Assembly (NCBI RefSeq): GCF_019551475.1
Contig: NZ_CP047159.1
Coordinates: 1,364,001-1,428,000, forward strand
DNA from: Prevotella sp. Rep29
GTDB lineage: Bacteria > Bacteroidota > Bacteroidia > Bacteroidales > Bacteroidaceae
Direction: 5' to 3'
Length of the DNA: 64,000 nt
A model generated the notes under the pieces. It ran no database searches. It worked only from the letters and a program-made list of their open reading frames with translations, and was not told where the DNA came from. Both the position numbers and the translations under genes were made by a program. Shown here piece by piece: positions 977 to 51,135 of the stretch; position 1 is the first letter of the stretch; every line of letters begins with the position of its first letter.

Positions 977-1190
977 GTATATTTATGCAGAGGGTAGGGT
1001 ATTAAGGCGCGTTTTGTAAACTCCTGAATTTCAATACATTAAGTAGAGCTTTCCAAAAGTTGAACTTTTAGCTTGCAAAAGTTCAACTTTGAGGACGCAA
1101 AAGTTCAACTTTCAGCGTGCAAAAGTTCAACTTTTGGAAAGTGAAAGTTCAACTGCATATTTATACTACCTTTTCCGTATGTTTATACAG
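977..1190 (+). repeat. Modular 22-bp palindrome array element, copy A (5 units)
   Basis: A 214-bp element: GTATATTTATGCAG at 977; then, exactly 78 bases on, the first of five units at 1055, 1077, 1099, 1121 and 1143 (exact 22-bp period), each built on AAAAGTTSAACTTTT plus a 7-base linker such as AGCTTGC or AGCGTGC; then GCATATTTATAC at 1155 and GTATGTTTATACAG at 1177. Each core is palindromic, and neighbouring cores can also pair with each other. It fills most of the gap between the cyclophilin-like gene and glyA. Four related copies are at 13334, 27104-27317 (minus), 43881 and 50989. Confidence 0.9.
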
Positions 1191-1240
1191 GGTGTGTTTG
1201 GGTGATTATTTTCGCCGGATTCACATTCCATATAACACAA

Positions 1241-1281
1241 AAAAGCCGGATTCGCAACAGCAAATCCGGCTTTTCTTTTTT
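1241..1281. terminator. Terminator of glyA
   Basis: Stem AAAAGCCGGATT / AATCCGGCTTTT around a short loop, with T-runs on both strands. It lies 14 bases beyond the glyA stop and can act on the minus strand. Confidence 0.85.
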
Positions 1282-1295
1282 TGACCTCCTATTTC

Positions 1296-2576
1296 TTAAT
1301 AAGCGAACAGGGGATAGTCTTTCATCATCTCATTGACACGTGCGCGAACGCTTGCAATTACCTCTTCATTCTCAGGAGCGTTGAGCACTTCCTCAATGAG
1401 GTCGGCAATGACTGGCATCATGTCTTCCTTCACGCCACGAGTGGTGATGGCAGGAGTACCGAGACGAATACCGCTGGTCTGGAATGCAGAGCGCGTATCG
1501 AACGGAACCATGTTTTTGTTGACCGTGATGTCGGCAGCAACGAGTGCATTCTCAGCCACCTTACCAGTCAGTTCGGGATATTTCGAACGGAGGTCAACCA
1601 GCATGGAGTGGTTGTCTGTACCACCGCTGACGATACCGAATCCGCGCTTTACGAGTTCCTCTGCCAATACCTGCGCATTCTTCTGCACCTGTTTAGCCCA
1701 TTCCTTGAACTCAGGCTGCAGTGCCTCGCCGAAAGCAACTGCCTTTGCAGCGATAACATGCTCCAGCGGTCCGCCTTGCTGACCTGGGAATACGGCAGAA
1801 TTGAGTATCTGGCTCATCATCTTCACCTGTCCCTTCGGAGTGGTCAGTCCCCATGGGTTCTCAAAGTCTTTGCCCATCAGGATGATACCTCCGCGTGGTC
1901 CACGCAAAGTCTTATGAGTCGTAGATGTCACGATGTGTGCATATTTAACGGGGTTTTCCAACAGTCCGGCAGCAATGAGTCCGGCAGGGTGAGCCATGTC
2001 AATCATGAGCAATGCTCCCACCTTGTCGGCTATTTCGCGCATGCGTTTGTAATCCCATTCGCGGCTGTATGCCGAGCCACCACCAATAATCAGTTTGGGC
2101 TTGTGCTCGATGGCAAGCTGCTCCATCTCGTCATAGTCCACGCGTCCTGTTTCCTTTTTCAGATTGTAACCCACGGGCTTGTAGAGGATACCGCTGGTGT
2201 TCACGTGCGAACCGTGTGAGAGGTGACCGCCGTGGTCGAGGTTCATACCCATGAACGTATCGCCGGGCTTCAGTACGGCGAGGAGAACAGCCGCATTGGC
2301 TTGTGCGCCGGAGTGTGGCTGAACGTTAGCATACTCAGCACCAAACAACTCACAAACGCGGTCGATAGCGAGTTGCTCAACCTGGTCAACTACTTGACAA
2401 CCGCCATAATAACGCTTGCCAGGATAGCCCTCAGCATACTTATTGGTCAGGTAGGAACCCATAGCTTCCATTACCTGATCGCTTACAAAATTCTCACTGG
2501 CAATCAGCTCAATGCCTTTCAACTGGCGCTGATGCTCTTTTTCAATCAGTTCAAAAATCTGGTTGTCTCTTTTCAT
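1296..2576 (-). CDS. glyA: Serine hydroxymethyltransferase
   Basis: Cytosolic PLP enzyme converting serine and tetrahydrofolate into glycine and 5,10-methylene-tetrahydrofolate, the main one-carbon entry point. The 426-aa product is full length. N-terminal IELIASENF (22-30), the substrate-pocket KRYYGG (54-59), HSGAQAN (88-94), and the PLP-lysine motif [14 protein letters not shown] with Lys222 are all present. The start is ATG 2576 ([13 protein letters not shown]); 32 upstream in-frame codons are unlike the family and AT-rich leader DNA. It is monocistronic, ends at its own terminator, and is divergent from lepA. Confidence 0.98.
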
Positions 2577-2766
2577 AGTGATTTGAGTGTTATACAATTT
2601 TAATATGATTATATACGATTCAATTCGCCTGCGAAGGTACATATTATTTTTAACATAAAGCAGGAAAAGCATTAAAATTTAGGCTTATTTTTATTTTTCG
2701 CCACACAAGACACAGCCGTTTGCTCTAAATTTCCGCCCAACGGTGTGTATTCTCGGAAAAAATTCT

Positions 2767-2774
2767 TATCTTTG
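2767..2774 (+). promoter_or_regulatory. -7 box of lepA
   Basis: TATCTTTG, a perfect TAnnTTTG -7 element 24 bases before the lepA ATG. The -33 side is not clearly conserved. Confidence 0.6.
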
Positions 2775-2797
2775 CGTGTTGAAAACAAGAGTTACTC

Positions 2798-4591
2798 ATG
2801 AATAACATAAGGAATTTCTGTATCATTGCGCATATTGACCATGGCAAATCGACCCTGGCTGACCGCTTGCTGGAGTACACCAACACGATTCAGATTACCG
2901 AGGGACAGATGCTCGACGACATGGATCTGGAGAAAGAGCGTGGCATCACCATCAAGAGCCATGCCATTCAGATGGAATATGCCTATACAAAAGACGGGAA
3001 GACAGAGCCCTATATTCTGAATCTGATTGACACTCCGGGACATGTGGATTTTTCCTACGAAGTGTCGCGAAGCATTGCTGCGTGTGAGGGAGCATTGCTG
3101 GTGGTCGATGCCACACAGGGCGTTCAGGCGCAGACCATCTCCAACCTCTACATGGCAATCGACCAGGATTTGGAAATCATCCCCGTCATCAACAAGATAG
3201 ACATGCCAAGCGCCATGCCCGATGAGGTAGAGGATGAAATCATTGACCTGATAGGTTGCGACCGCTCCGAGATTATCCGTGCTTCGGGCAAGACTGGCGA
3301 AGGAGTGGAAGACATCCTTAACGCTGTGGTCGAACGCGTGCCGCATCCAGATGGAAACGCAGAAGCGCCCCTGCAGGCGCTGATATTCGACTCGGTGTTC
3401 AACTCGTTTCGGGGCATCATCGCCTATTTCAAAATAGAAAACGGCGTCATCAGGAAAGGTGACAAGGTGAAATTCTTCAACACGGGAATGGAATACGATG
3501 CTGACGAAGTGGGAGTTCTGAAGATGGATATGATTCCCCGCAAAGAGATGTCAGCAGGCGAAGTGGGGTATATCATCAGTGGTATAAAAAACGCAAAGGA
3601 AGTACAGGTCGGTGACACCATCACCCATGTGGCACGCCCTTGCGAAAAAGCTATTGAGGGATTCCAGGAAGTGAAGCCAATGGTCTTTGCAGGTGTGTAT
3701 CCGATAGACCCTACTGACTACGAAAACCTGCGGGCTTCACTCGAAAAACTGCAGCTCAACGATGCATCGCTCTCATTCATGCCCGAATCGTCCGTGGCAT
3801 TAGGCTTCGGTTTCCGCTGCGGATTCCTCGGATTGCTGCACATGGAGATTATCCAGGAACGGCTCGACCGCGAATTCGACATGGATGTGATTACGACGGT
3901 TCCTAACGTGTCATATATGGTTTATGACAAGCAGGGTGGGGTAAAGGAAGTGCACAATCCTTCCGGACTTCCCGACCAGACACTCATCGACCATATCGAA
4001 GAGCCCTACATCAAAGCGACCGTCATCTCCGATGCCAACTATATCGGACCTATCATGAAACTGTGTCTGGATAAACGCGGGGAACTCATCAAGCAAGAAT
4101 ATGTAAGCGGCAATCGGGTAGAATTGCATTTCTATCTGCCGCTGGGCGAGATTGTGATTGATTTCTACGATAAACTGAAATCCATATCAAAGGGCTACGC
4201 ATCATTTGACTACCATATATCGGGATTCCGTCCGTCGCATCTTGCCAAACTCGACATTCTGCTCAACGGCGAGCCCGTCGATGCACTGTCAACGCTGACG
4301 CACCACGACAATGCCGTCGCTTTCGGCAGACGGATGTGTGAGAAACTGAAGGAACTGATTCCGCGCCAGCAGTTTGATATTGCGATACAGGCTGCCATCG
4401 GTGCAAAGATTATTGCGCGTGAAACGGTCAAGCAGGTGAGAAAGGACGTCACGGCGAAGTGTTATGGCGGTGACGTGTCTCGTAAGCGCAAACTACTTGA
4501 GAAACAGAAACGGGGAAAGAAGCGCATGAAGCAGATTGGTAATGTGGAAGTGCCGCAAAAAGCCTTCCTCGCCGTTCTGAAACTCGACTAA
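2798..4591 (+). CDS. lepA: Elongation factor 4 (LepA), ribosome back-translocating GTPase
   Basis: A 597-aa translational GTPase that acts on stalled or mis-translocated ribosomes. GTPase motifs are intact: G1 AHIDHGKST (11-19), G2 RGIT (48-51), G3 DTPGH (78-82) and G4 NKID (132-135). EF-G-like domains follow, then the LepA-specific C-terminal domain ending in [20 protein letters not shown], typical of the family. Length and start are standard. The Crp-type gene follows after 23 bases, so read-through into it is likely. Confidence 0.98.
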
Positions 4592-4614
4592 AACAAGAGT
4601 CTTTTGTGGGAACC

Positions 4615-5211
4615 ATGAGAAGATTGCCAAGAAATACACGGGATGTTGCGCGCGAACTGGCACGTAAGTACAGTACGATGACGCATGAAGAACTCGACAT
4701 TCTCGAGCAGATTCTCGTGCCCATGAAATTTGCAAAAGGCGAGATGATTCTCCGTGAAGGTGAGGTGTGCAAGCACATCTATCACATTGACAGAGGACTT
4801 GTACGGCAATTTTATTATAAGGCGGATAAGGAGTTGACCGAACATATCGGCATCGACAATTCCATCGTGATGTGTATCGAAAGTCTTTTCCGCGAGGAAC
4901 CAACCTACCTGCAGATTGAGGCTTTGGAACCGACGGTTATCTATGCACTTCCTAAAAAGCGTTTGGAAGAGGTAGCCCTGCACAATGTGAACATCCAGAT
5001 TCTATATCGTAAGATATTGGAGGAGTCGCTGATTCTCTCCCAGGTACATGCCGACCTTGTGCGTTTCGAGACTGCCTACGACCGATATATGAAAATGTGC
5101 CGGCTGATGCCGCAGGTCGTCTTGCGTGCACCGCTGATTTATATTGCCAGCTATCTGCAGATGACTCCCGAGACACTCAGCCGCGTCAGGGCAAGCAAGG
5201 CTCCGGAGTAA
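4615..5211 (+). CDS. Crp/Fnr-family transcriptional regulator
   Basis: The 198-aa product has an N-terminal cyclic-nucleotide-binding-type beta-roll (about residues 15-115: KFAKGEMILREGEVCKHIYHI...GLVRQFYYK) and a C-terminal helix-turn-helix region (about 160-195: APLIYIASYLQMTPETLSRVRA). The fold is that of Crp-type activators; Bacteroidetes members often lack the arginine-containing cAMP cassette, and none is obvious here, so the ligand is unknown. The first ATG (4615) was chosen over an upstream GTG at 4606. It sits 23 bases downstream of lepA and ends before a strong bidirectional terminator. Confidence 0.85.
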   Translation: MRRLPRNTRDVARELARKYSTMTHEELDILEQILVPMKFAKGEMILREGEVCKHIYHIDRGLVRQFYYKADKELTEHIGIDNSIVMCIESLFREEPTYLQIEALEPTVIYALPKKRLEEVALHNVNIQILYRKILEESLILSQVHADLVRFETAYDRYMKMCRLMPQVVLRAPLIYIASYLQMTPETLSRVRASKAPE

Positions 5212-5226
5212 GAAGTATGCAGACAC

Positions 5227-5272
5227 GAAAAAAGTCCGTACAAACCTATCCAAGGTCTGTACGGACTTTTCA
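5227..5272. terminator. Bidirectional terminator between the crp-like and acyl-CoA ligase genes
   Basis: Stem AAAAGTCCGTACA / TGTACGGACTTTT with A-run on the left and T-run on the right. It separates two convergent genes and can serve both. Confidence 0.85.
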
Positions 5273-5291
5273 TTTGTGTTTCTTATAGCTC

Positions 5292-6974
5292 TTAGAAAAG
5301 GCTTGCTTTCTGATAGAGGAAGCGCTTGATGCTCTTCTTCGGTGTCTTTTCGAACTCTTCTTGGCGCAGGCGGATGGCTGAAAGTTTGCTGTAAGACGGC
5401 AACACTTCGTTAAGCTCCTGCCGGTTCTGCTCCATGATGTTCTGCAGGTCTTCATCGTTCAGTCCCAGGTTCTTTGCCTCGTCATAGTCGGGATGCACCA
5501 GTCCTACCAGCTTTTCACCTTCCTGTATGACCACGCTTTCCGCAACCATTGTCATGGAGTTGAGTTTGTCTTCAATCTCTTCCGGGTAAATATTCTGTCC
5601 GTTGGCGCCCAACAGCATATTCTTTGAACGTCCCTTTATAAAGACGTTTCCATTGGCATCCATCGTTCCCAAATCTCCCGTGTGATACCATCCTTCACTG
5701 TCAAGAGCCTCACGCGTTGCTTCTTCGTTTTTGTAATAACCGAGCATCACGTTGAGTCCTCTCGCAAGGATTTCTCCGGGAATGTTCTTCGGATCAGGGC
5801 TCACAATCTTCACCTCCATGTGCAAGGCTGCCCGCCCACATGAGCCGGGAACAAAGTCTTTCCATCCGCTATAGCAAATAATCGGTGCACATTCCGTAGC
5901 ACCATAGCCCACAGTGTAGGGGAATTCTATGCGGTGCATGAACTGTTCCACCTCTTGATTGAATGCCGCGCCGCCAATGATGACTTCGTGGAAGTTGCCG
6001 CCAAAAGCTGCAACCACCTGGTCACAGATTTTCTGGTTGACTTTCTTGTTGACGACAGGCATTCCGAGCAACAGGCGCATACGATTGTTCTGAATCTTCG
6101 GGAAAACTTTCTTTCGAATGATTTTCTCAATCACAAGCGGTACGGCAATGATGATTGCCGGGCGCACTTCGGCAAATGCCTGTGCGATGATGGCTGGCGA
6201 GGGGATGCGGTTGAGATAGAACACATGGCATCCGTGCAGGAATTCGAAGATAAACTCGAACGCCATTCCGTACATGTGTGCCATCGGAAGGATGCTCAGC
6301 ACGTTATCGCCACATTTAATCTTGTCGCCCAACACATGCTCCGCAAAATCGTAATTGCTCCAAAGGGCGCGATAAGGAATCATCACTCCTTTCGAAAAGC
6401 CTGTCGTTCCACTGGTATAGTTAATCATCGCCATCTCATCGGGCGACTCTTCTTTATAATAATGTACGTGTTCCTTTCTAAAATATTTAGGAAATTTCTT
6501 GCCGAACATCTCATTGAGGTGTTCTCTCGCATAGGTTAGTTTGTCGGAGCGGGAGAGTAGCAGCGAGTAGTCGGGATTGTTGATGATGCCTTCGAGTCCC
6601 GGCATTTTGGTCGGGTCAACAACTGTCGCAACGACATCGCCCACGAAAAGCAGTTTGGCATCGCTGTGGTTGACGATGTTATGCACTTGGTCTGGCGTGA
6701 ATTCGTGTAGGATGGGCACGGCAACTGCTCCGTAAGTCAGTGTGGCGAGGAACGCTACCGCCCATTGTGAACTGTTCCGTCCGCAGAGTGCTATCTTGTC
6801 GCCACGCTCGACACCGCTGTTCTCAAACAGGATATGCAGTTTCTCTATCTTGCGTGCCACGTCGTGAAACTGCAGGGTTGCCCCTTTGTAATCGGTCAGT
6901 GCGTCTCTGTCCCAGTTGCTGATGATGCTCTGTTCTATGATCGAGTTGAAGCAAGGTATTTGTTCCATGTTCAT
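5292..6974 (-). CDS. AMP-dependent long-chain fatty acid-CoA ligase, paralogue 1
   Basis: A 560-aa member of the ANL adenylating family that would activate a fatty acid to acyl-AMP and then acyl-CoA. Motifs: P-loop-like YTSGTTGFSKGV (about 186-197), YGATECAPII (adenine-site region), and WYHTGDLG followed by IKGRSKNM (A8 hinge), with the C-terminal lysine region KTPKKSIKRFLYQ. It is the downstream member of a tandem pair with the gene at 6990 (15 bases between them), and they share most residues, so this is a gene duplication. The exact chain length used cannot be read from sequence. ATG 6974 or 6968 are both usable starts. Confidence 0.9.
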   Translation of the reverse strand: MNMEQIPCFNSIIEQSIISNWDRDALTDYKGATLQFHDVARKIEKLHILFENSGVERGDKIALCGRNSSQWAVAFLATLTYGAVAVPILHEFTPDQVHNIVNHSDAKLLFVGDVVATVVDPTKMPGLEGIINNPDYSLLLSRSDKLTYAREHLNEMFGKKFPKYFRKEHVHYYKEESPDEMAMINYTSGTTGFSKGVMIPYRALWSNYDFAEHVLGDKIKCGDNVLSILPMAHMYGMAFEFIFEFLHGCHVFYLNRIPSPAIIAQAFAEVRPAIIIAVPLVIEKIIRKKVFPKIQNNRMRLLLGMPVVNKKVNQKICDQVVAAFGGNFHEVIIGGAAFNQEVEQFMHRIEFPYTVGYGATECAPIICYSGWKDFVPGSCGRAALHMEVKIVSPDPKNIPGEILARGLNVMLGYYKNEEATREALDSEGWYHTGDLGTMDANGNVFIKGRSKNMLLGANGQNIYPEEIEDKLNSMTMVAESVVIQEGEKLVGLVHPDYDEAKNLGLNDEDLQNIMEQNRQELNEVLPSYSKLSAIRLRQEEFEKTPKKSIKRFLYQKASLF

Positions 6975-6989
6975 TGTTTTTTTTGCCTG

Positions 6990-8651: not shown

Positions 8652-8674
8652 TGCACAAAGTTCAAAAGTTTGTG

Positions 8675-12900: not shown

Positions 12901-12932
12901 AAAGATAGTGCAAGTTGAGAGAAAAAGCAAAT
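12901..12932 (-). promoter_or_regulatory. Promoter of the LolC/E permease
   Basis: The minus strand reads TTTG, 20 bases, TATCTTTG: a full Bacteroidetes promoter. The -7 box ends 11 bases from ATG 12890, so the transcript leader would be very short. Confidence 0.7.
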
Positions 12933-13158
12933 ATATTTGCATTTTTCCGAGACGCCGCCTATCTTGGACGTCAGTCAAAGATACGATTAAGTGAGAACAA
13001 CACAAAATAAAAGCCTGTTTTTATTTTTGTTGTCGAGCGTGAGTATCTTATGAAAAGATAGTGCAAGTTGAGAGAAAAAGCAAATATATTTGCATTTCTC
13101 CGAGACGCCGCCTATCTTGGACGTCAGTCAAAGATACGATTAAGTGAGAACAACACAT
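12902..13158. repeat. Direct duplication of the permease promoter region (2 x 104 bp)
   Basis: Copies at 12902-13005 and 13055-13158 (period 153) differ at a single base inside the repeat (CATTTTTCC against CATTTCTCC). A shared 19-mer beginning TCGAGCGTGAG follows each, at 13034 and 13201, after unlike linkers. Each unit carries an internal minus-strand TATCTTTG. The outer copy's proximal -7 has lost its conserved G (aaaagata instead of caaagata), so only the inner copy keeps both -7 boxes. Confidence 0.9.
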
Positions 13159-13229
13159 TTAGAGTCCCTTGATAAGGGACGGCTATAATGCAGGGATTAT
13201 CGAGCGTGAGTATCTTATTATTCTTCATC

Positions 13230-13274
13230 CCTCCCTTTGGGAGGGGTAGGGGTGGGTTTAGGGGCTCCTCCCCG
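13230..13274. repeat. G/C-rich palindromic intergenic repeat, copy 1
   Basis: CCCTCCC-TTT-GGGAGGGG followed by TAGGGGTGGG and GGGGCTCCTCCCC. A relative lies at 58577-58616 between the two pdxS 3' ends. Its hairpin-forming design resembles REP-like intergenic repeats. Confidence 0.55.
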
Positions 13275-13333: not shown

Positions 13334-13531
13334 GTATAAACATACGGCAGTTTCCGAATAATTATGCGAAACATGCATATCTTTCATCGAAAAACGGTGA
13401 AAATTGCTTCCAAAAGTGCCACTTTTAGCGTTCAAAAGGGCAACTATTGGAATGCGAAAGTGGCACTTTCGCAACGTGAAAGTTCAACTTTCACAAACCG
13501 ACAGCGCAAATATTCCGTATAAACCCCGCTT
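13334..13531 (+). repeat. Modular 22-bp palindrome array element, copy B (4 units, diverged)
   Basis: GTATAAACATACGGCAG at 13334 and the first unit at 13412, again exactly 78 bases apart. Units are at 13412, 13434, 13456 and 13478 (22-bp period). Cores here include AAAAGTGCCACTTTT and AAAGTGGCACTTT, so the palindrome is kept although two paired positions differ from the usual GTTSAAC. The right-hand motifs have decayed (CGTATAAACC near 13517). The remaining DNA to 13773 shows no gene or signal. Confidence 0.75.
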
Positions 13532-13773
13532 TTTCGCTTTCTAACACGTTGATTTTCAGAAAACTTTTCGCAGGAGCGCTTAAAATGCTTCCGCCCTCAT
13601 TACAGCCCACCGACAGAAATATACAGCCTTCTGGCGTGTTAATTTTTGTAAAGAAACCTAAAATACCTCTCGAAAAATGTCTAAGAGAAGATTGTTTTTC
13701 TGCAATAATTAATCTTCCTCAGATTCTTAATCAGAAATTTAAATTGGAATTTATCTTTTAGAATCGCTTCGCG

Positions 13774-26495: not shown

Positions 26496-27002
26496 CTACT
26501 TTTTGACAACGACAAACTGCTCGATGTGCTCGTCGATGTATTGTGCCACTTGCGCCATCCAGTCTTCTTCACACTCCACGAATTCGTCGTCGAACTCGTC
26601 GAAGGCGGGGAAACGCTCGAACATTGCCATGAACTCCTCGTCTGTGCAGTCACGCTCGATTTCCTCATGGTGCTGCTCATATTTCTTCCGCACCTTGTTC
26701 ATCAGCCTCGCCAGTTCGTCCACGCCCCACATACGCATCACCTTTGCAAAGGGATTGTGGAAAAAGAATGGTCCGTAGCCATTGTGTATGAGTTGCACGA
26801 ATCCTCCGTCCATCACTTCCTCATGAAGGATGTGGTAGGCGAGGAGCGTTGCCTGGTCAGCGTTCAGTTCGGCAAGGTGTTCCCCCGTCAATTCTCCGTC
26901 AATCGCCTGCATGACAGCATCGACGAAAAGTTGCACGAAAGCGTCCATGCCCGACTCGGCAGCCTCAATGATTTTCGTTTCCTCAAGTTCTATTTTTTTC
27001 AT
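26496..27002 (-). CDS. DMP19 family (DUF4375) protein
   Basis: A 168-aa acidic helical protein of the DMP19/DUF4375 family, named after a viral histone-mimic-like protein; its bacterial role is unknown. Signature region: [41 protein letters not shown] (given here as its span, residues about 76-116). The start is ATG 27002 with a promoter just upstream; 65 further upstream in-frame codons run into the repeat element and are not coding. First gene of the six-gene minus-strand run ending with cinA. Confidence 0.82.
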
Positions 27003-27009
27003 CGTGGTG

Positions 27010-27041
27010 CAAAAGTAACCTTTTTCCAACAAACTGGCAAA
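27010..27041 (-). promoter_or_regulatory. Promoter of the DMP19-smpB-map-tsaD run
   Basis: Minus strand: TTTG, 20 bases, TACTTTTG, seven bases from ATG 27002, so the leader would be very short or absent. Confidence 0.6.
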
Positions 27042-27103
27042 TGAATAGGCAAAAATAACAATTTGAGGGAATGAAGGCAACATGCAAAGCGGCAACGGAA
27101 CCT

Positions 27104-27317
27104 CTGCATAAACATGCAGAAAGGGATGTATAAATATGTAGTTGAACTTTCGCTTTCCAAAAGTTGAAGTTTTGCACGCTAAAAGTTCAACTTTCATCGC
27201 CTAAAAGTTCAACTTTTGCAAGCTAAAAGTTGAACTTTTGGAAACACATTCTTAAACCGTTAAGAATCAATTTGTTACAAATCACAACACAGCGACACAC
27301 CCACTGCATAAATATAC
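27104..27317 (-). repeat. Modular 22-bp palindrome array element, copy C (5 units)
   Basis: Read on the minus strand: GTATATTTATGCAG begins at 27317, and the first unit begins at 27239, exactly 78 bases later. Units start at 27239, 27217, 27195, 27173 and 27151 (22-bp period). The closing motifs ACATATTTATAC (27139) and GCATGTTTATGCAG (27117) are 22 bases apart. Total length is 214 bp, as in copies A and D. It lies between the divergent DMP19 and eno genes; the rest of the gap holds only their promoters. Confidence 0.9.
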
Positions 27318-27442: not shown

Positions 27443-28900
<1,458 letters not shown>

Positions 28901-43880: not shown

Positions 43881-44094
43881 GTATATTTATACAGTTGCAT
43901 CCGCATTGCAGGACAATTTGCAAAGTTCTGATTTTCAACTCGTTATATATGGCCTTCTAAAAGTGCCACTTTCAGCGTGTAAAAGTTGAACTTTTAGCGC
44001 CTGAAAGTTGAACTTTTAGAACGCAAAAGTTCAACTTTTGGAAAATGAAAGTTCACCCGTCATATTTATACGCTTTCGTGGTATATTTATACAG
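43881..44094 (+). repeat. Modular 22-bp palindrome array element, copy D (5 units)
   Basis: GTATATTTATACAG at 43881; first unit at 43959, 78 bases later. Units at 43959, 43981, 44003, 44025 and 44047 (22-bp period). The first unit carries the paired variant AAAAGTGCCACTTT and the others GTTSAAC. Closing motifs TCATATTTATAC (44060) and GTATATTTATACAG (44081). Total 214 bp. Confidence 0.9.
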
Positions 44095-44140
44095 AGATGG
44101 AGGGGAGAGTAAAAACAGACTGCTCTATTCACGAAAAGAG

Positions 44141-44211: not shown

Positions 44212-44221
44212 CTTAACAATA

Positions 44222-44272
44222 AAAGATTAAAAGAACGTCATGCCAAAAGGCATATCCATTGTTTTAATCTTT
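44222..44272. repeat. Inverted repeat in the tRNA spacer
   Basis: AAAGATTAAAA / TTTTAATCTTT with an inner ATGCC / GGCAT stem, lying between tRNA-Gly and tRNA-Thr. It may be a processing hairpin in a joint tRNA transcript. Confidence 0.5.
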
Positions 44273-44276
44273 ATGG

Positions 44277-44349
44277 AGCCGATACCCGGACTCGAACCGG
44301 GGACCTATTCATTACGAATGAATTGCTCTACCAACTGAGCCATATCGGC
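44277..44349 (-). tRNA. tRNA-Thr (anticodon CGT)
   Basis: A 73-nt cloverleaf on the minus strand: acceptor GCCGATA / TATCGGC, D arm GCTC..GAGC, anticodon stem ATTCA / TGAAT with loop TTCGTAA (anticodon CGT), TPsiC GGTTCGAGTC. No CCA encoded. Confidence 0.95.
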
Positions 44350-44430
44350 AACGGTACAGGGCGAATAATCGTTCGCCTGATTTTATGCGGTGCAAAGGTA
44401 GTGTTATTTTTCGTATGCGCAAAATATTTT

Positions 44431-47247
44431 TCAATTTATTTTTCCTGCGAGATATTTGCCCGTAAGACTATTCTCATTGCGCACGATGTCTTCCGGGGTG
44501 CCGGCACAAACAAGGTTTCCACCCATGTCGCCGCCTTCCGGACCGAGGTCTATCACGTAATCGGCACATTTGATGATGTCAAGATTATGCTCAATGACGA
44601 TGATGGTATGGCCGCGCGCTATCAATGCGTCAAAGGCGGTGAGCAGGCGCTGGATGTCATGAAAATGGAGACCGGTGGTCGGCTCGTCGAAGATAAACAG
44701 GGTGGGGTCCTGTCGCTCCTGACCGATGAAATATGCCAGTTTCACCCGCTGATTCTCACCGCCGGAGAGCGTTGAGGAACTCTGTCCGAGCTTAATGTAT
44801 CCCAATCCGACATCTTCAAGCGGCTTGAGTCGTCCGACGATGCCTTTCTCCTTATGCTCTTCGAAAAAGGATATCGCTTCGGAAACGGTAAGGTCTAAGA
44901 TGTCGTTGATGTTTTTTCCCGCAAACCGTACGTCGAGAATATCTTTCTTGAAACGTTTCCCATGGCAGGATTCGCATTCCAGAACCAAGTCTGCCATGAA
45001 CTGCATCTCAACGGTGATGACGCCGGCACCTTTGCATTCCTCGCAGCGTCCTCCGTCGGCATTGAAAGAAAAATGCTGCGGCGAGAAATTCAGCTGCTTG
45101 GAAAGTGGCTGTTCGGCAAAAAGCTGGCGGATGGCGTCGTAGGCTTTAACGTATGTGGCGGGATTGGAACGAGTGCTCTTTCCTATTGGATTTTGATCAA
45201 CAAACTCCACGTGTTTCACTTGTTGCCAGTCGCCCTCGAGACCGCCGTATTCGCCAGGGGCATCGCACACCTCATCCAAATGACGCTTCAGGGCAGGGTA
45301 GAGGATGCCTTTCACGAGCGACGACTTGCCGCTGCCGCTGACTCCTGTAATCACATTCAGCACGTTGAGCGGAAATTTCACGTCAATGCCTTTCAGGTTG
45401 TTCATCCGTGCACCTTTGATTTCAATCGCCATATTCCACGGGCGACGGGTTGTCGGAGTTGCAATCGTGTCGGTATGGGTGAGATAACGCACGGTGTGTG
45501 AGCGCGGATATTTCTTGAGCGCTTTCTTGTCAATATCGCTTCCTTTTCCTTCAAAAACAATTTCTCCACCGAGTCTTCCTGCGTCTGGACCGATATCGAT
45601 GAGATAATCGGCTGTCCGCATGATTTCTTCATCGTGTTCAACGACGATGACGGTGTTGCCCACATCGCGCAAGTCTTTTAGCACCTGTACCAGCCTGTCT
45701 GTATCGCGGCTATGCAGTCCGATACTGGGCTCATCGAGGATGTAGAGCGAACCGACAAGTGAACTGCCAAGCGAGGTGGTCAGGTTGATTCGTTGGCTTT
45801 CGCCTCCGCTCAGCGAGTTGGACTGTCTGTTGAGCGTGAGATATCCCAGTCCCACATTTACCAGGAACTGCAGGCGGTTTTTGATTTCCACCAAGAGTCT
45901 GTTTGCGATTTTTTCCTCGTGCGCATCCAGTTTCAGGTTGTCGAACCACTGCTTGAGGTTCCATACGGACATCTCGACCAAGTCGGTAATGCTCTTGCCG
46001 TTAATCTTCACGTAACTTGCCGTTTTCTTCAGTCGTGTTCCGTGACAATCCGGGCAGAACGTCTTGCCTCGGTATCGGCTCATCATGACTCGATATTGAA
46101 TCTTGTATTGGTTCTCTTTGAGCATCTGGAAGAACGAGTCGATGGAGACTTGTTCGTGAATATCCTTGCCGCTTTCTGACGGCAATCCGTGCCAGAGCAT
46201 GTCTTTCTCTTCACGCGACAGCTTATAGTAAGGAGTGAAAATAGGGAAGTCATCTTTGGCTGCACGCCTGCAGAACTCCTCCTGCCACACCTTCATTTTC
46301 TCTCCATGCCAGCATTGTACGCAGCCGTCGTAAACGCTCAGGGTGGTATTTGGAATCACCAGTTTTTCGTCAATTCCGATGATGCGCCCGAATCCTTCGC
46401 AGGTAGGACATGCTCCGACGGGCGAATTGAACGAGAACATGTTGTCGTTCGGCTCTTCAAAAGTGATGCCGTCAGCCTCAAAACGGGTCGAGAAGTCGTA
46501 GGATATATTGGCAGGAAGGAATGCGAGGCGGCAAACGCCGTCGCCTTCGTACAGGGCTGTTTCAAGCGAATCGGTCAAACGGGACATCGTGTCGGCGCTG
46601 TCGTCAACAGACATGCGGTCAACGACGAGGTACAAATCGTTGGCATTGATTTTGTCAAGCAGCGAAGCATCGCTAAGCACATCGCTGATGCGCATAATCT
46701 CTCCTTTACAGCTCAAACGGACGAATCCCTGCTGCATTTCCATTTCCAGATGCTTTTGGAGCGGCCTGCCTTCGGGTATCTGGAGAGGCGCCATGACGAT
46801 AAACTTGGTGCCTGGAGAGAAAGAAAACACCCGTTTCAGTATGTCTTCCGTCGTGTGTTTCTTCACTTCTTCGCCGCTGATAGGGGAGTAGGTGTGTCCG
46901 ATGCGGGTGTATAGTAGCCTGAGATACTCGTAAATCTCGGTTGAAGTTCCGACTGTGGAACGTGGATTGCGGCTGTTGACCTTCTGTTCGATGGCGATTG
47001 CGGGCGGCAGACCTCTTATAAAGTCGCACTCAGGTTTGCTCAAGCGACCCAAAAACTGGCGTGCATAGGACGACAGACTCTCGACGTATCGGCGCTGACC
47101 TTCTGCATAGAGGGTGTCGAATGCCAACGACGACTTGCCGCTACCACTGACTCCAGTAACCGCAACGAATTGGTCTCGTGGGATTTTCACGTCAATATGC
47201 TTCAGGTTATTGACCCGTGCGCCTTTGATTTCGATGTATTCTGCCAT
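44431..47247 (-). CDS. uvrA: UvrABC excinuclease subunit A
   Basis: A 938-aa ABC-type ATPase that finds bulky DNA lesions and loads UvrB. Two nucleotide-binding halves: Walker A GVSGSGKSSLAFDTLY and GVSGSGKSSLVKGILY, signature LSGGESQRINL and LSGGENQRVKLA, with Walker B YILDEPSIGLH and FIFDEPTTGLH. Zinc-finger cysteines are visible (CPTCEGFG, CPDCHG, CEECKGAG, CESCHG). ATG 47247 (MAEYIEIKGARVNNL) is the family start; 64 codons upstream are an unlikely Arg-rich extension that overlaps the upstream gene. Confidence 0.98.
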   Translation of the reverse strand: MAEYIEIKGARVNNLKHIDVKIPRDQFVAVTGVSGSGKSSLAFDTLYAEGQRRYVESLSSYARQFLGRLSKPECDFIRGLPPAIAIEQKVNSRNPRSTVGTSTEIYEYLRLLYTRIGHTYSPISGEEVKKHTTEDILKRVFSFSPGTKFIVMAPLQIPEGRPLQKHLEMEMQQGFVRLSCKGEIMRISDVLSDASLLDKINANDLYLVVDRMSVDDSADTMSRLTDSLETALYEGDGVCRLAFLPANISYDFSTRFEADGITFEEPNDNMFSFNSPVGACPTCEGFGRIIGIDEKLVIPNTTLSVYDGCVQCWHGEKMKVWQEEFCRRAAKDDFPIFTPYYKLSREEKDMLWHGLPSESGKDIHEQVSIDSFFQMLKENQYKIQYRVMMSRYRGKTFCPDCHGTRLKKTASYVKINGKSITDLVEMSVWNLKQWFDNLKLDAHEEKIANRLLVEIKNRLQFLVNVGLGYLTLNRQSNSLSGGESQRINLTTSLGSSLVGSLYILDEPSIGLHSRDTDRLVQVLKDLRDVGNTVIVVEHDEEIMRTADYLIDIGPDAGRLGGEIVFEGKGSDIDKKALKKYPRSHTVRYLTHTDTIATPTTRRPWNMAIEIKGARMNNLKGIDVKFPLNVLNVITGVSGSGKSSLVKGILYPALKRHLDEVCDAPGEYGGLEGDWQQVKHVEFVDQNPIGKSTRSNPATYVKAYDAIRQLFAEQPLSKQLNFSPQHFSFNADGGRCEECKGAGVITVEMQFMADLVLECESCHGKRFKKDILDVRFAGKNINDILDLTVSEAISFFEEHKEKGIVGRLKPLEDVGLGYIKLGQSSSTLSGGENQRVKLAYFIGQERQDPTLFIFDEPTTGLHFHDIQRLLTAFDALIARGHTIIVIEHNLDIIKCADYVIDLGPEGGDMGGNLVCAGTPEDIVRNENSLTGKYLAGKIN

Positions 47248-47276
47248 GCTTTTTCGTCGGATAAGTTGCCTGCAAG

Positions 47277-47852
47277 CTATTCGTAGGAGATGCCGTTGTC
47301 TTTGATAAATGTCTCGAGACTTTTGCCTCCGTCGAGCGATGGTGAGAATTCCGTGAGTACCCGGAAGAGCTTTTTGCCATATTGTTCGATGCCGTCTTTC
47401 AGTGTGTCGAGCACGCAGACATCTCCGGCAAGTCCGCAAAGGTCTATCTGACTGATTTCCAGCGCCGTGATAAGTTGCTTCAAAGTATTTGCTGAAGCAT
47501 GGTTTTTGAATATGGAGTATTCTTCGCGGTCCTCGTAAACGCCTTTGCGGAGTACTTTCAGCAGTCCGCCTGATTCATTCAGCGGTGCAACAAGTGCGGG
47601 ATAAATGGCTGCACCGACGGTGTTACTCACACAATGAATGGGCCATTGTCCGCCTTGTGGCTGGAACGAGCAGTGTCTGTACGGGTGCCAGTCGGTCGTT
47701 ACAACTTTGCAGCAATACTTGTCTTTGTTATCTGAAATGTATGCGCCCAGTGCCTCCATAGCTTCCTGGGCGTGGGGCACGGGGAGTGATCCGCTGATGA
47801 AATCAATTTGCGGATCAACTATTAATAGCATCTTTTTCTCCATATTCTCCAT
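47277..47852 (-). CDS. pncA: Nicotinamidase-type isochorismatase-fold hydrolase
   Basis: A 191-aa enzyme, probably turning nicotinamide into nicotinate for NAD salvage. The catalytic triad fits: Asp13 (IVDPQIDF), Lys103 (RKGV) and Cys146 (AGDVCVLDT). The metal site TTDWHPYRHCSF is typical of nicotinamidases rather than isochorismatases. It is 29 bases upstream of uvrA. The symbol is by family and motif. Confidence 0.88.
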   Translation of the reverse strand: MENMEKKMLLIVDPQIDFISGSLPVPHAQEAMEALGAYISDNKDKYCCKVVTTDWHPYRHCSFQPQGGQWPIHCVSNTVGAAIYPALVAPLNESGGLLKVLRKGVYEDREEYSIFKNHASANTLKQLITALEISQIDLCGLAGDVCVLDTLKDGIEQYGKKLFRVLTEFSPSLDGGKSLETFIKDNGISYE

Positions 47853-48037
47853 ATATTTGTCCGTTAGGGGTTACCCGATTATCTTATTTATCATAATGTA
47901 TATTATCTAAAAATTGTACATATGCATTGCTTAAGTATATTGCGTGCAGTTTTTCATCACGCAACGTGCAATGTCATTGCGCCTCCTACACATTATTTAT
48001 ATATACGCGCACGCATGCGCAGGGTTTGTTTTCATGA

Positions 48038-49351
48038 TCACACGGGATTATTCTCGGCGAAAATTTGCATACGTTTATCAAGCAACGTGTACTGGTTGTC
48101 AGTTACGAATGATGTACAGATGCGCAGACCTTGCTGCTCGCTGCCAGTTGTTCCGAGGTTGATGGCTGATACGCCGTAGTACATCAGTTCGCGTGCAAGT
48201 TGGCTGGAAGTCATGCCCGGGTAGCCGATTGTGAAATAGAATCCGTCGGCTATGGGTTCTGTTCCGTCTCGGTCGTAAACGATTTGGAAGCCGTGGCGTG
48301 TGAATATTTCCTTGAGTCGGTGTGCCCGTTGTCCGTAGATAATGATATCGTCGCGGAAATTGAAGTGCCCGTCGGTGGCTTCGCGCATGATTGCTGCTAG
48401 TGCGTATTGTGCGCTGTGGCTCGTTCCTGAGCTGAGTGCGTATAGCATGCGTGTTGAGAATACGGCTCCGAAAGGCAGTCCGTCGTAACGTGCTGCGAGA
48501 TCCGGATATGTGCGGTGATAAAGCCGGTTGCTGATGCAGGTAACGGCAATGCGCTCGCCAGCATAACTGAAGGCTTTCGAGCCGCTGATGAGGAGTATGT
48601 AGTTGTCGGTATAGTGTCCCACTGTCGGCTGGTATGGCGGCTCGAACGGACGGCTCAGGTCGTTCCTGAAGTCCATCGCGAAATATGCCAGGTCTTCGAT
48701 AATGGTGACGTCGTACTCTTGTGAGAGCTCCCCTATCGTGCGCAGTTCGTCCTCAGTGAGGCATATCCACGAGGGATTGTTGGGGTTGGAATAGACGATG
48801 GCACAGATGTTTCCTGCCTTGAGATAGCTTTCAAGTTTGGCGCGCAGCCGGTCTCCGCGGTGCTCATAGACGTCGAAAGTCTCGCAGCGTGCACCCATGA
48901 CGTTAATCTGCATTTTCTGTACGGGGAATCCCGGGTCGATGAAGAGCACGGTGTCTTTTTTCCGGTCTGCCTGCGAGCATGCGAGGAAAGATGCGTAGCC
49001 GCCTTGCATGCTGCCTACGACGGGTATGCAGCCTTCGGCTTCGATGTCGATACCGATGAATGCTTTGACGAACCGTGATGCTTGTTTTTTGAGTTCGGGC
49101 AGTCCCTGTATGTCGGGATACATGTTGGCGATGCCGTCTTGTAGGGCTTTGATTTGCGCTTCCACACCCACGCGTGCTGCCGGCAGTCCGGGTATGCCCA
49201 TTTCCATCTTGATGAATTCTTCACCTGAGGCGCGCTCTGCAATGGCTGCAACCTGTTTCACTTCGCGTATGGTGGCGCGTCCAAAGTCTTGTATGCCAAA
49301 CTCTTGTATGGCTTGGTCGATAATTTCTCGTTTAATTGGTGTGGGTTTCAT
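48038..49351 (-). CDS. PLP-dependent aminotransferase, class I/II
   Basis: A 437-aa fold-type I aminotransferase. PLP lysine in SGSKAFSYAGERIAV, the NPNNPSW motif for the carboxylate-binding Asn, and a late Arg in GLRICTSFV. The N-terminus (FGRATIREVKQVAAIAERASGEEFIKMEMG) matches Bacteroidetes aminotransferases annotated only as class I/II, so the amino acid is not assigned. ATG 49351 fits the family; upstream in-frame codons run through its promoter. Confidence 0.9.
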   Translation of the reverse strand: MKPTPIKREIIDQAIQEFGIQDFGRATIREVKQVAAIAERASGEEFIKMEMGIPGLPAARVGVEAQIKALQDGIANMYPDIQGLPELKKQASRFVKAFIGIDIEAEGCIPVVGSMQGGYASFLACSQADRKKDTVLFIDPGFPVQKMQINVMGARCETFDVYEHRGDRLRAKLESYLKAGNICAIVYSNPNNPSWICLTEDELRTIGELSQEYDVTIIEDLAYFAMDFRNDLSRPFEPPYQPTVGHYTDNYILLISGSKAFSYAGERIAVTCISNRLYHRTYPDLAARYDGLPFGAVFSTRMLYALSSGTSHSAQYALAAIMREATDGHFNFRDDIIIYGQRAHRLKEIFTRHGFQIVYDRDGTEPIADGFYFTIGYPGMTSSQLARELMYYGVSAINLGTTGSEQQGLRICTSFVTDNQYTLLDKRMQIFAENNPV

Positions 49352-49386
49352 AGTGTTTTTGATTTTAGATTTTTCGTTTCTTTGTG

Positions 49387-49418
49387 CAAAGATACGGCTT
49401 TCGTCTGTATTTTCCAAA
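49387..49418 (-). promoter_or_regulatory. Promoter of the aminotransferase gene
   Basis: Minus strand: TTTG, 20 bases, TATCTTTG, 35 bases before ATG 49351. Confidence 0.78.
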
Positions 49419-49484
49419 CGAACCCTTTGCCTTTTTTTGCCTATAAATATATTAATGTACAGAAAGGACCTCTCCCCTCGCCTA

Positions 49485-50807
49485 TCAGAATGAATAAGCA
49501 AAGCCAACGGAGGCAAACTCTTTCAACTGCCAGTAACCATGGTGCCCGTCGCGCGCAACACCATCATCGAAACGCGGATAGATAAACACGTTTGTCGAAA
49601 TATACCTATTGAACTTGAAGACAAATGTATTCTCCCATTCAAACTCAGCACGCTTATAGGTCGTGAAGCCGTAGATTCGCATTTTCCAGTTAATCTGGTC
49701 GGTGAACTTCCACATCAGGTCGATCGTAAACTGAGAACCGATGTCATGCAGCGTCTTCTTGCCTTCTTCCAGATTATATCGGGTTGCCAGTTCCTTCCGT
49801 TTCACAAAGCGGAAGTTGTATGCTGCCGGTGCCAGATGGACATTTCCTGTCAGTTTTTTATTGAATGCCTCGACCGTATAGTCCATACCCAGCGAGATGT
49901 TGAGGTCGAACGGAGAGAGGAAGTCGGAGTAGATGCGCTCGTCATTGCTCTTATAGCCGCGATAGAACTGAGTAGATGCCAAGACTTGCAGCGTGTAATA
50001 CCATTTCTTAGATGCCTGCAAGCCCAGTTTTCCCGTGTATCGGATAAGGTCTTCCGACGCTTTGAATGAATGGAGGCTGTCGCTCCGTGAGGTCAGGAAG
50101 CCCAGTTTCATCTCCAGCTTATTGTCCCATTTCACCTTCTGCTTATTATTATAATTGGCTTCCATGGTGATACTTCCGAGCATTGAATAGGTGCTTTCGC
50201 CTCCCTTATACCAATTGCTCGAGACGTAATTTTGCAGGAACTGCAGATAATAGTCACCCTTTATCGTCCAGAAATTCGGACGTTTCACCAACACCTCGAC
50301 CGGTGTTTTCGTCGGCTCTATCGTGGTCGGTGAAATCTTCTCTACAAGTCCGGCATCATGATGAACCGGCACGTCAATTTCCGGGGTCGCCCCATCCGCT
50401 TTCTGCAGGTTGTTTTCGCTGTTCGCCACCAAGTCCTGACGCTTCAAGTAAATATTCATTAAAGCGTTTTCAATATACTTGTTTTCAAGACTTTGCATCG
50501 CAGAGTCACTTCCGAGTGAAAACTTGTTTTTTGCCAACGAATGATAGAAAGTCAACGGCACGAAAAGTTTGTAATATTTACCATCAAGAAGTGGTGCTTC
50601 AGAAGACAGTTTCAGCCTTCTGTTCTCCTCCGCCAGCGAGTCAATCCTGTGTCGGTAAATAGCCAATGAGTCGGTATAGTTTTTCACTAATTGTGAATGG
50701 CTGTCAACGTGCACCGCTCCGCTTCGAACGACCTGCGCACTTGCGTCAAGATGGCTCAGCAAACAGAAGCAAGCGACAATGAAGATTTTATATATTGGAC
50801 ATTTCAT
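49485..50807 (-). CDS. DUF3078 outer-membrane beta-barrel protein
   Basis: A 440-aa exported protein. Signal peptide to about residue 24 (FIVACFCLLSHLDASAQ), a coiled-coil-like stretch (SLAIYRHRIDSLAEENRRLKLS), and a C-terminal DUF3078 domain from about 175: WTIKGDYYLQFLQNYVSSNWYKGG, WDNKLEMKLGF, then alternating aromatic strands to the terminal SVGFAYSF, whose final Phe fits an outer-membrane barrel. Function is unknown. Its 5' end faces element copy E. Confidence 0.85.
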   Translation of the reverse strand: MKCPIYKIFIVACFCLLSHLDASAQVVRSGAVHVDSHSQLVKNYTDSLAIYRHRIDSLAEENRRLKLSSEAPLLDGKYYKLFVPLTFYHSLAKNKFSLGSDSAMQSLENKYIENALMNIYLKRQDLVANSENNLQKADGATPEIDVPVHHDAGLVEKISPTTIEPTKTPVEVLVKRPNFWTIKGDYYLQFLQNYVSSNWYKGGESTYSMLGSITMEANYNNKQKVKWDNKLEMKLGFLTSRSDSLHSFKASEDLIRYTGKLGLQASKKWYYTLQVLASTQFYRGYKSNDERIYSDFLSPFDLNISLGMDYTVEAFNKKLTGNVHLAPAAYNFRFVKRKELATRYNLEEGKKTLHDIGSQFTIDLMWKFTDQINWKMRIYGFTTYKRAEFEWENTFVFKFNRYISTNVFIYPRFDDGVARDGHHGYWQLKEFASVGFAYSF

Positions 50808-50820
50808 GCTGTTTTTGGTG

Positions 50821-50828
50821 CAAATTTA
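50821..50828 (-). promoter_or_regulatory. -7 box of the DUF3078 gene
   Basis: Minus strand TAAATTTG, 13 bases from the ATG 50807; no clear -33. Confidence 0.45.
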
Positions 50829-50988
50829 GACAAAATTCTCGAATTACGATACTATCGGCACAAAGAATTATGGTTTCTTCCATGTCATATCAATATTCAC
50901 GCGAGTTTCCATATAGGGGTGGATGAAAGTCTGACGGCAGCTTTTGTGCCGCTCCGGCATTCCGTTCGTTTTGCCGCTGACAGCTTTT

Positions 50989-51135
50989 GTATATTTATGC
51001 AAGGGTGAAGCGAATGATGTGCAATTCATAAACGATTGATTTTCAAAGCATTAAGAAATACTTTCCAAAAGTTAAACTTTTGGAAAGCGAAAGTTCAACC
51101 GTATATTTATACGCGTTTAGCGTATGTTTATGCAA
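50989..51135 (+). repeat. Modular 22-bp palindrome array element, copy E (2 units)
   Basis: GTATATTTATGC at 50989; first unit at 51067, again 78 bases later; second at 51089. Closing motifs GTATATTTATAC (51101) and GTATGTTTATGCAAGG (51122). This is the short form: identical frame, three units fewer. It lies between the divergent DUF3078 and pyrG genes. Confidence 0.9.

Follow-up and report, generated by a model that had tools for sequence, protein, structure and literature searches.

A dispersed family of intergenic arrays with a 22-bp repeat frame in a Prevotella chromosome, and its relation to PINSR

The window analysed here, a 64,000-nucleotide stretch of the chromosome of Prevotella sp. 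Rep29 (NZ_CP047159.1, positions 1,364,001 to 1,428,000), contains five copies of a modular element (Table 1). All five lie where the initial annotation had placed them, and their units follow one another in 22-bp steps as described there, with 5, 4, 5, 5, and 2 units in copies A to E. The unit has the frame AAAAG-N5-CTTTT-N7 and is built of two inverted half-sites, each consisting of an A-tract and a triplet; a copy typically carries four to five such units. A dyad is located about three turns upstream of the array, and the element is bounded by palindromic AT-rich end motifs (GTATATTTATRC), one on the left and two on the right, 22 bp apart.

Table 1. Copies of the element in the window and their parts.
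Feature	Position	Strand	Description
Copy A	977-1190	+	Type 1; 214 bp; 5 units
Copy A, left motif	977-990	+	
Copy A, dyad	about 1016-1041	+	
Copy A, array	1055-1157	+	Five AAAAGTTSAACTTTT units in 22-bp steps, the last degenerate (AAAGTTCAACTG)
Copy A, R1	1155-1166	+	Right part
Copy A, R2	1177-1190	+	Right part
Copy B	13334-13560	.	Second subtype; 4 units: GTGCCAC, GGGCAAC, GTGGCAC, GTTCAAC
Copy B, first motif	13334		Inverted GTATAAACATAC
Copy B, similar motif	13356		
Copy B, array	13412-13494		
Copy B, dyad	about 13542-13559		TAACACGTTGATTTTCAG
Copy C	27104-27317	-	Type 1; 214 bp; 5 units; upstream of enolase gene (27560-28900)
Copy D	43881-44094	+	Type 1; 214 bp; 5 units; 45 bp from tRNA-Gly(ccc)
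Copy E	50989-51135	+	Type 1 shortened to 2 units; 147 bp; intergenic space between DUF3078 gene and CTP synthase gene

Two statements on the layout need qualification. The distance of 78 bases reported between the first motif and the array stands in every copy (977 to 1055, 13334 to 13412, 27317 to 27239 on the minus strand, 43881 to 43959, and 50989 to 51067), but the motif of copy B is inverted relative to those of the other copies, a similar motif is found 22 bp further along, and the dyad lies beyond the array. Loci L011, L024, and L025 resemble this subtype. Likewise, the length of 214 bp is exact for copies A, C, and D when counted with the first and last motifs included (147 bp in E), but the element extends further: conservation begins about 35–40 bp upstream of this core, and some copies have wings with inverted ends that reach about -90 on one side and +250 on the other. 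Copy E occupies an intergenic space of 502 bp, against an estimated 88–311 bp in 34 relatives out of the 44 that allowed placement of both genes, and by this measure the site looks lineage-specific. Alignment of site E with relatives revealed no clean empty site. An array was found at 8 of 80 loci anchored on YidC, none of them at the site of copy E, in a three-unit frame scan that misses two-unit copies.

The five copies are members of a larger dispersed non-coding family, and the observation is bigger than first described. At least 117 places are known in the 2.73-Mb chromosome, and extrapolation from an even 464-kb sample gives an estimated total of about 147 copies. A genome-wide scan of the kind proposed in the initial annotation returned many further copies that keep the spacing: a two-unit array pattern allowing up to 3 mismatches gave 298 forward matches in the whole genome versus 7 for the reversed control, and a sequence-only model gave at least 154 matches among the best 150 of 1,435 candidates scored, some arrays being counted on both strands. 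Copies occur in both orientations over the whole chromosome, at an even density of 6 to 13 listed places per chromosome twelfth. They lie mostly between genes, with 8 of 186 flanking sides overlapping an ORF call of at least 130 aa; for the 93 copies classified (3 of 96 were left out), the flanking genes are convergent in 30 cases, co-directional in 47, and divergent in 16. This set of 96 comprises the copies scoring at least 60, so defined that copies B and E and the second subtype fall outside it. A scan of the 464-kb sample with leader and end parts only, ignoring the frames, found 19 copies versus 0 in the reversed control. All 19 have intact frames, with at least 8 of 10 letters in each unit even where the flank score is weak, which argues that frame conservation is not an artefact of frame-based copy finding.

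The claim that spacing is stricter than sequence is borne out across the family. Among the 96 copies, the step from one unit to the next is exactly 22 bp in 371 of 382 cases; 77 copies have 5 units, 11 have 4, 7 have 6, and a single one has 7. Ungapped stacking was achieved for 84 of the 96, the profile omitting the 12 copies with an ungapped score below 110, and over these 84 divergence is very uneven: 3.9% in AAAAG/CTTTT, 10% in the left motif, 11% in R2, 21.5% in the inner five letters, 26.9% in the linker, 28% in the leader, and 48% in the spacer of fixed length. Median divergence between nearest-neighbour copies is 17.6%. Between such neighbours the frame differs by 4% and the spacer by 46%, indicating that constraint acts on recent branches. 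Since each 22-bp unit holds inverted half-sites, AAAA tracts take turns with TTTT tracts at 11-bp intervals on one helix face; the A-tract spectrum peaks at 11–11.25 bp. Mean predicted curvature of the 96 copies reaches the 98th percentile of the window, and that of copy E is not extreme (80–95th percentile).

The frame itself occurs across the genus with species-specific inner letters. At least 10 unit pairs were found in 28 of 150 genomes of the genus, Rep29 included, versus 4 of 150 in the control, and in 1 of the 294 genomes from elsewhere in the order. By contrast, the model built on the window's copies matched only 12 of 396 relatives at 1e-12, and its best match in a relative (5.1e-18) is far weaker than that in its own genome (8.2e-56), both results being based on the best 5 candidates per genome. 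Together with the lineage-specific site E, these weaker matches suggest that copies have been gained or replaced over time. In 30 unit sets from other genomes, of which 27 come from a single locus, among them three (from L034, L038, and L043) that represent further loci of genomes G012, G010, and G084, the half-site triplets are genome-specific.

Several known repeats share parts of this plan. BOX elements of Streptococcus pneumoniae have a similar modular A-(B)n-C plan, and the BIME-2/REP sequences of E. coli are likewise dispersed intergenic palindromes; to our knowledge, neither 22-bp phasing in the former nor a 22-bp phased array in the latter is known. BrickBuilt/MITE239 of Porphyromonas gingivalis is also intergenic, with a modular leader, short tandem repeats, and a tail, and the end of MITE239 resembles the wings of some copies of the present family; compared by description, it differs in its 23-nt units, 1 to 22.8 repeats, 19 copies, and IS5-type ends (PMC4596501). 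The closest relative is PINSR, a 188-bp repeat of P. intermedia and P. nigrescens left without function in 2015 (PMC4755523). The statement that no described family has this layout therefore stands in part: PINSR is a relative, but its authors' description, in the portion of the report consulted, does not include the 22-bp frame. According to the same portion, PINSR is non-coding, intergenic, about 188 bp long, present in about 180 copies, and a repeat of the same genus; terminal inverted repeats are not reported for it, and two strains have about three quarters of its sites in common (PMC4755523).

Elements of genomes G084 and G017, with 185 bp between end motifs, match P. nigrescens NZ_CP082843.1 at 8 places (83.4% over 193 bp). 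These PINSR-type elements have the same plan as those of the window (left motif, dyad, four 22-bp units, and paired right motifs), but their leader, end-motif, and unit sequences are different, and the left motif lies 57 bp from the array instead of 79 bp, a change of 22 bp. Compared via the G084 elements, the sequence match between the two families is at frame level only. Divergence in 18 PINSR-type copies (16 from G084, 2 from G017) is 0.7% in AAAA, 2.1% in TTTT, 10.7% in the linker, and 30.6% in the spacer, the same ranking as in the window's family. Whereas the available part of the PINSR report describes a PCR survey, including P. marshii, in which the repeat was confined to a single clade (PMC4755523), the 22-bp frame is present in Hoylesella marshii (G076, probably NZ_GL397214.1), with 17 matches against 1 in the control.

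A further property is that copies exclude one another. Among 103 listed copies in the genome, none of the gaps is below 7 kb versus 23.8 expected, and 5000 simulations never gave fewer than 10; in the even 464-kb sample, 25 arrays (24 from the scan, plus copy E added manually) form 0 pairs below 7 kb versus 6.5 expected (P=0.0001). The 96 own-genome loci of about 3 kb contain a second array in no case; the reversed-string control of that scan, which hit 10 times in the stretches and once within the window, itself picks up some true arrays and was set aside. Close pairs in this genome are one 2.8 kb and one about 7.0 kb apart. For the PINSR-type genome, 104 listed copies on the main contig (54 plus, 50 minus) show 0 gaps below 3 kb versus 15.2 expected and 14 below 5 kb versus 24.0; exclusion is weak on the second contig, with 2 gaps below 2 kb versus 5.5 expected and 9 below 3 kb versus 8.0. 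The 7-kb and 3-kb limits were picked after the data were seen, against a null of uniform placement. Copy lists derive from the best 150 of 1,435 candidates in the window's genome and the best 150 of 1,927 in the PINSR-type genome. The spacing list combines model matches, with opposite-strand or split matches merged by eye, with places from the locus scan and from the pattern scan, whose matches were listed up to about 1.13 Mb. The shared 22/11-bp design, the uneven part-by-part conservation, and this mutual exclusion are new.

Dispersed bacterial repeats are usually taken for junk or dead mobile DNA. Here, a fixed-length spacer of free sequence, a frame near-invariant on recent branches, and strong exclusion indicate a working site. 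The explanation that we tentatively favour, although we stop short of calling it probable, is that each copy is a phased array of sites for a dimeric protein that would bend or wrap DNA, forming a spaced chromosome-architecture site of MITE-like origin. A phased array for a dimeric protein or a nucleoid site had been proposed from the start; the layout fits the former and the copy spacing a nucleoid-type role, with the binding protein remaining putative. A putative dimeric sequence-reading protein with a species-varying triplet preference would fill the array and bend or wrap the DNA, and a second putative protein would hold the element ends; the resulting complex could serve as an anchor, topological or nucleoid, set at intervals along the chromosome. 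Copies lying too near each other would then be redundant or harmful and be lost. The family was probably dispersed in the distant past as a MITE-like element, with its copies maintained at their sites thereafter. Patchy distribution in the genus (28 of 150 genomes) is odd for an important function and counts against an architectural role, as do the turnover of copies, the MITE-type ends on some of them, and the unexceptional curvature predicted for copy E.

The main rival is that the family is a non-autonomous MITE-like element moved in trans, its array and end motifs serving as transpososome sites; we regard this as rather unlikely. Target immunity of the Tn7, Mu, and Tn3 type would produce exclusion, and the lineage-specific length of site E is in line with mobility. 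A right inverted end (TYATCGAATTCACGT) matches at 12 or more of 15 letters in 16 copies out of 96, against 1 of 96 in the control, and a left end (ACGTGARTYCGATATAAG) at 16 of 18 in 3 of 96 (control 0 of 96; 6 versus 3 at 13 or more); ends of this type occur at 7 genome places (control 0), 4 of which have no array in the stretch inspected. Both ends resemble that of MITE239 (PMC4596501). Yet most copies have no recognisable ends, and the copies are old, as their median divergence indicates, with near-unchanged frames, which is unexpected for dead MITEs. PINSR, in the part of its description consulted, likewise speaks against mobility through its site sharing between strains and the terminal inverted repeats it does not report (PMC4755523). 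The Mu-type transposase family PF09299 matched 0 of 150 genomes, in a search whose control failed too.

As a special case of the architectural reading, the arrays could be strong DNA gyrase sites, in which the C-terminal domains of gyrase would wrap the phased A-tracts in the manner of BIME-2 or the Mu centre. The 11-bp A-tract period, the mostly intergenic location, and the spacing of copies are compatible with this proposal; from what the cited part of one study reports, the arms of the E. coli gyrase motif are periodic at 10.75 bp, and BIME-2 elements have properties of strong gyrase sites and might contribute to genome organisation (PMC6379681). The same text holds that gyrase is thought to read DNA indirectly (PMC6379681), so that species-specific triplets and fixed end motifs would be unexpected, and in the published motif two arms flank a non-periodic centre, whereas the array here is continuous. 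We consider this identity improbable.

A transcribed structured RNA or a bidirectional terminator is less probable again. Copy A folds strongly (-66.2 kcal/mol, z -6.55), few copies (16 of 93) lie between divergent genes, and the third inner unit pair covaries in the window's genome (0.826 paired versus 0.579 expected). The fold is no proof of RNA, however, since self-complementary units fold anyway; two-sided change affects only 3 of 46 predicted pairs in 11 copies, and no inner-letter covariation was seen within the 30 sets from other genomes, a low-power test that omits sets of fewer than 3 units, most sets having 3 to 5. The 22-bp helical phase has no RNA rationale, and Rfam gave no match at the element, its only matches in the window being tRNAs. 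The structured RNA suggested earlier is therefore unsupported, and tRNA or Rfam RNA identity is rejected. REP/BIME-type elements spread by a RAYT (Y1) transposase would likewise be short, intergenic, species-specific palindromes in over a hundred copies, and Y1_Tnp matches exist in array-rich genomes G004, G010, G053, G065, and G140, but this origin is highly improbable, with no Y1_Tnp (PF01797) in the window's genome (G000) or array-rich G012, and array-rich G039, G078, and G084 outside the 76 genomes with a match.

Other identities were discarded. Coding is rejected because a 22-bp period is not divisible by 3. The arrays do not resemble CRISPRs: position by position, their 7-base linkers are conserved from copy to copy rather than being unique spacers. 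An iteron-type origin, suggested by the 22-bp steps and, in some species, a TTATCAAC-like dyad, was abandoned because TTATCAAC is absent from the consensus dyad of the window's family and the copies are dispersed. Phage or plasmid origin is unsupported, copy A having no match in plasmid or phage records. Viral contigs gave 0 exact three-unit matches and 0 matches of the window's own unit pair; the 9 two-unit viral matches comprise a true array in one 4.2-kb contig (L281), a doubtful one (L285), six sharing one non-array sequence, and a lone inverted repeat (L288).

A wider version of the architectural reading is possible but more speculative. The arrays may be genus-wide chromosome-spacing sites, read by a fast-evolving dimeric architectural protein with a species-specific triplet 'dialect' and pinning supercoiled loops at a minimum distance of about 7 kb in this genome and about 3 kb on the PINSR-type main contig, with PINSR as one member. 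PINSR thereby gains a design and a wider family. The finding raises a testable question, namely whether bacterial chromosomes carry sequence-defined, spaced topological anchors, and which protein reads them; as Prevotella is a common human and rumen genus, this question is accessible there.

All five copies of the modular intergenic element that the initial annotation had described in the window, A, B, C, D and E at 977, 13334, 27317 (minus strand), 43881 and 50989, are present there, and the 214-bp length it gave to three of them is that of A, C and D. Copy E is a two-unit version of the element. Copy B shares the 22-bp frame (AAAAG-N5-CTTTT-N7), as had been claimed, but it represents a second subtype, with an inverted end motif and the dyad on the other side. 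A period-76 tandem repeat adjoins copy B (window 12916-13149, 3.1 copies, 55% matches) and contains CGAGCGTGAGTATCTT. A GC-rich dispersed sequence unlike the array (GGAGCCCCACCC...CCTCCC...GGGAGGG and similar) often lies beside array copies, B among them (see table). The longest reading of a DMP19-like gene (window 26496-27197) begins within copy C; the gene proper probably starts deeper in this reading frame.

The genome is a single contig of 2,730,135 bases, the window occupying 1364001-1428000. A sequence-only model built from 11 copies, with scoring of the best 150 among 1,435 first-look candidates, gave at least 154 matches, some arrays being counted on both strands, and hand resolution of the matches listed left at least 103 distinct places. 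With places from two further scans and window copies B and E, at least 117 are known, and the expectation of more copies keeping the 22-bp spacing was borne out, exact steps being found in 371 of 382 (96 copies). In an even 464-kb sample, made up of the window and 20 stretches, there are 25 arrays, counting E, which was entered by hand; at that density the whole genome would carry about 147.

The arrays are phased. Anatomy was read from 96 copies scoring at least 60 in the stretches examined, 84 of which, with an ungapped score of at least 110, were stacked gap-free (see table). Five units are found in 77 of the 96. The distance from A-tract to T-tract is 11 bp inside each unit and likewise between neighbouring units, and the A-tract spectrum peaks at 11 to 11.25 bp. 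Predicted curvature, based on bend values from the literature, averages 95.3 over the 96 copies versus 68.3 in shuffled letters, corresponding to the 98th percentile of the window.

Parts of the element, left to right, in the stack of 84 copies, and places of the GC-rich dispersed sequence
Feature	Form	Position
Upstream stretch	~35-40 bp, weakly conserved	
Left motif	GTATATTTATGCA	after the upstream stretch
Spacer	23 bases, length fixed, letters nearly free	right of GTATATTTATGCA
Dyad	GTAAAC..TTGA...TCAA..CGTTA, then GCTTTCC	right of the spacer
Array	four units AAAAGTTSAACTTTT, 7-base linkers differing by position	right of GCTTTCC
Fifth unit	degenerate	right of the four units
Right motifs	GTATATTTATAC, then GTATGTTTATGCA 22 bp further on	right of the fifth unit
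GC-rich sequence beside copy B		window 13229-13262
GC-rich sequence		right flanks of loci L004, L018, L021, L057, L061, L062, L068, L073, L084
GC-rich sequence		left flanks of loci L053, L061

Conservation of these parts is uneven. Measured against the consensus, AAAAG/CTTTT diverges by 3.9%, the end motifs by 10-17%, the inner five bases (N5) by 21.5%, the linkers (N7) by 26.9%, the leader by 28% and the spacer by 48%, and nearest-neighbour comparison of copies ranks the parts alike (4% vs 46%). Such unevenness should not arise in a repeat merely decaying after insertion. Because the models that first found the copies reward intact frames, the 464-kb sample was also scanned by leader and end parts alone. 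This gave 19 matches, and none in the reversed control; all 19 carry at least 8 of 10 frame letters in every unit, even as the flanking score drops from 150 to 58, which removes the doubt that frame conservation is a product of frame-based finding.

A two-unit frame pattern (AAAAG-N5-CTTTT-N7-AAAAG-N5-CTTTT, at most 2 mismatches) was sought across the genus, which we take to be Prevotella in the wide GTDB sense, including Hoylesella marshii. It is present in 70 of 150 genomes, own included; 28 have at least 10 matches (maximum 440), against 4 in the reversed control. Elsewhere in the order, 1 of 294 genomes reaches 10 (G332, 17 matches vs 1 in its control), as does 1 of 294 in the control (G206). 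The G332 arrays (L301, L306, L311) have period 22 and frame AAAAGTYNNACTTTT; these loci are assigned to it because none of the remaining four genomes searched has units like theirs, and the arrays probably come from a 2.0-Mb genome of another family of the order. At 1e-12, 13 of 397 relatives (own included) match the model of the window's own family, all except the own genome far more weakly. A four-unit Prevotella-type array also lies on L281, a 4.2-kb IMG/VR contig filed as viral.

Half-sites (A-tract plus triplet) are species-specific: the inner triplets are GTT/GTG in the window's genome, GGT/GAT in G010, GCA/GCT/GGG in G012 and GCG/CCT/CAG in G084. One inner pair covaries in the window's genome. 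The inner letters are more complementary than in pooled shuffles, yet not more so than when shuffled within a set, where units are few. The shared feature is thus a half-site particular to each genome, of the kind a dimeric protein would read, and not a paired stem.

The closest published description found by searching the literature for 22-bp phased Prevotella repeats is PINSR, and a search on that name returned PMC4755523 alone. That paper gives a length of 188 bp, 177 copies in one P. intermedia strain and 184 in another, about three quarters of the sites common to both, no terminal inverted repeats and most likely no encoded protein (PMC4755523). Elements of G084 match P. nigrescens NZ_CP082843.1, and the copies of G084 and G017 are therefore of PINSR type. 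Eighteen such copies rank the parts by divergence as in the window's family. In PINSR-type copies (L161-L179), units 2 and 3 have right halves of two forms, GCT[GC] and TAGG, which trade places from copy to copy; almost every copy has both forms, set about an invariant linker core, CACGGT.

Copies also exclude one another. No two of the 103 listed copies in the own genome are less than 7,259 bp apart, and no gap falls below 7 kb, a limit picked after viewing the data, versus 23.8 by random (uniform) placement; 5000 simulated trials never gave fewer than 10. Adding 14 further places brings one pair 2.8 kb apart and one of about 7.0 kb (6,965 in the list's mixed coordinates; 7,018 between array starts), leaving 1 gap below 6.5 kb vs 28.4 expected under the uniform null. 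The sole clear exception is a short array-like match at 500078, whose neighbour at 497274 is 2.8 kb away. The even sample has no pair below 7 kb (6.5 expected, P=0.0001; uniform null, post-hoc limit), and a second array was found in none of 96 own-genome loci of ~3 kb. In G084, with lists from the best 150 of 1,927 candidates scored and with limits likewise post hoc and a uniform null, the 104 copies listed on the main contig show no gap below 3 kb vs 15.2 expected and 14 below 5 kb vs 24.0, and those listed on the second contig show little exclusion (2 below 2 kb vs 5.5; 9 below 3 kb vs 8.0). Known copies occupy every twelfth of the own chromosome (6 to 13 each), with 54 on the plus strand and 50 on the minus strand. 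Simple ORF calls place them mostly in intergenic DNA, with ORF overlap on 8 of 186 flanking sides, and the neighbours of 93 classified copies are convergent in 30, co-directional in 47 and divergent in 16. The chief rival reading, that of an ancient mobile element showing target immunity, accounts for this exclusion, but leaves unexplained why the frames of old copies have diverged so little.

Mobility probably lies at the origin. Site E is flanked by the DUF3078 gene and the CTP synthase gene, which are 502 bp apart in the window; by estimates from protein matches in 44 relatives with both genes placed, the interval measures 88 to 311 bp in 34 (the closest relative, L201, has 245 bp) and 493, 575 and 770 bp in three others, the genes being further apart or rearranged in seven. 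No three-unit array was found between these genes in relatives, and aligning them yielded no clean empty site for copy E. Given the shorter interval and the missing array, site E was probably gained in the window's lineage or lost in others. The MITE239 end ACGTGAGTTCGATATAAAGGAA, listed in a table of the BrickBuilt paper (PMC4596501), resembles the wings (flanking stretches with MITE-type inverted ends) of some window-family copies, and this turnover together with the wings favours an origin by transposition, then long maintenance. Ends like ACGTGAGTTCGATATAAG also occur at four own-genome places (L290, L291, L292, L293), where the 560 bases examined contain no array.

Among proteins that might wrap the arrays, DNA gyrase is possible (PMC6379681), but it leaves the triplets unexplained. 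An RNA role of the element is weakly supported. The reading we prefer is that a dimeric protein would occupy the array, bending or wrapping the DNA, that a second protein may bind the end motifs, and that the element may have a role in chromosome architecture.
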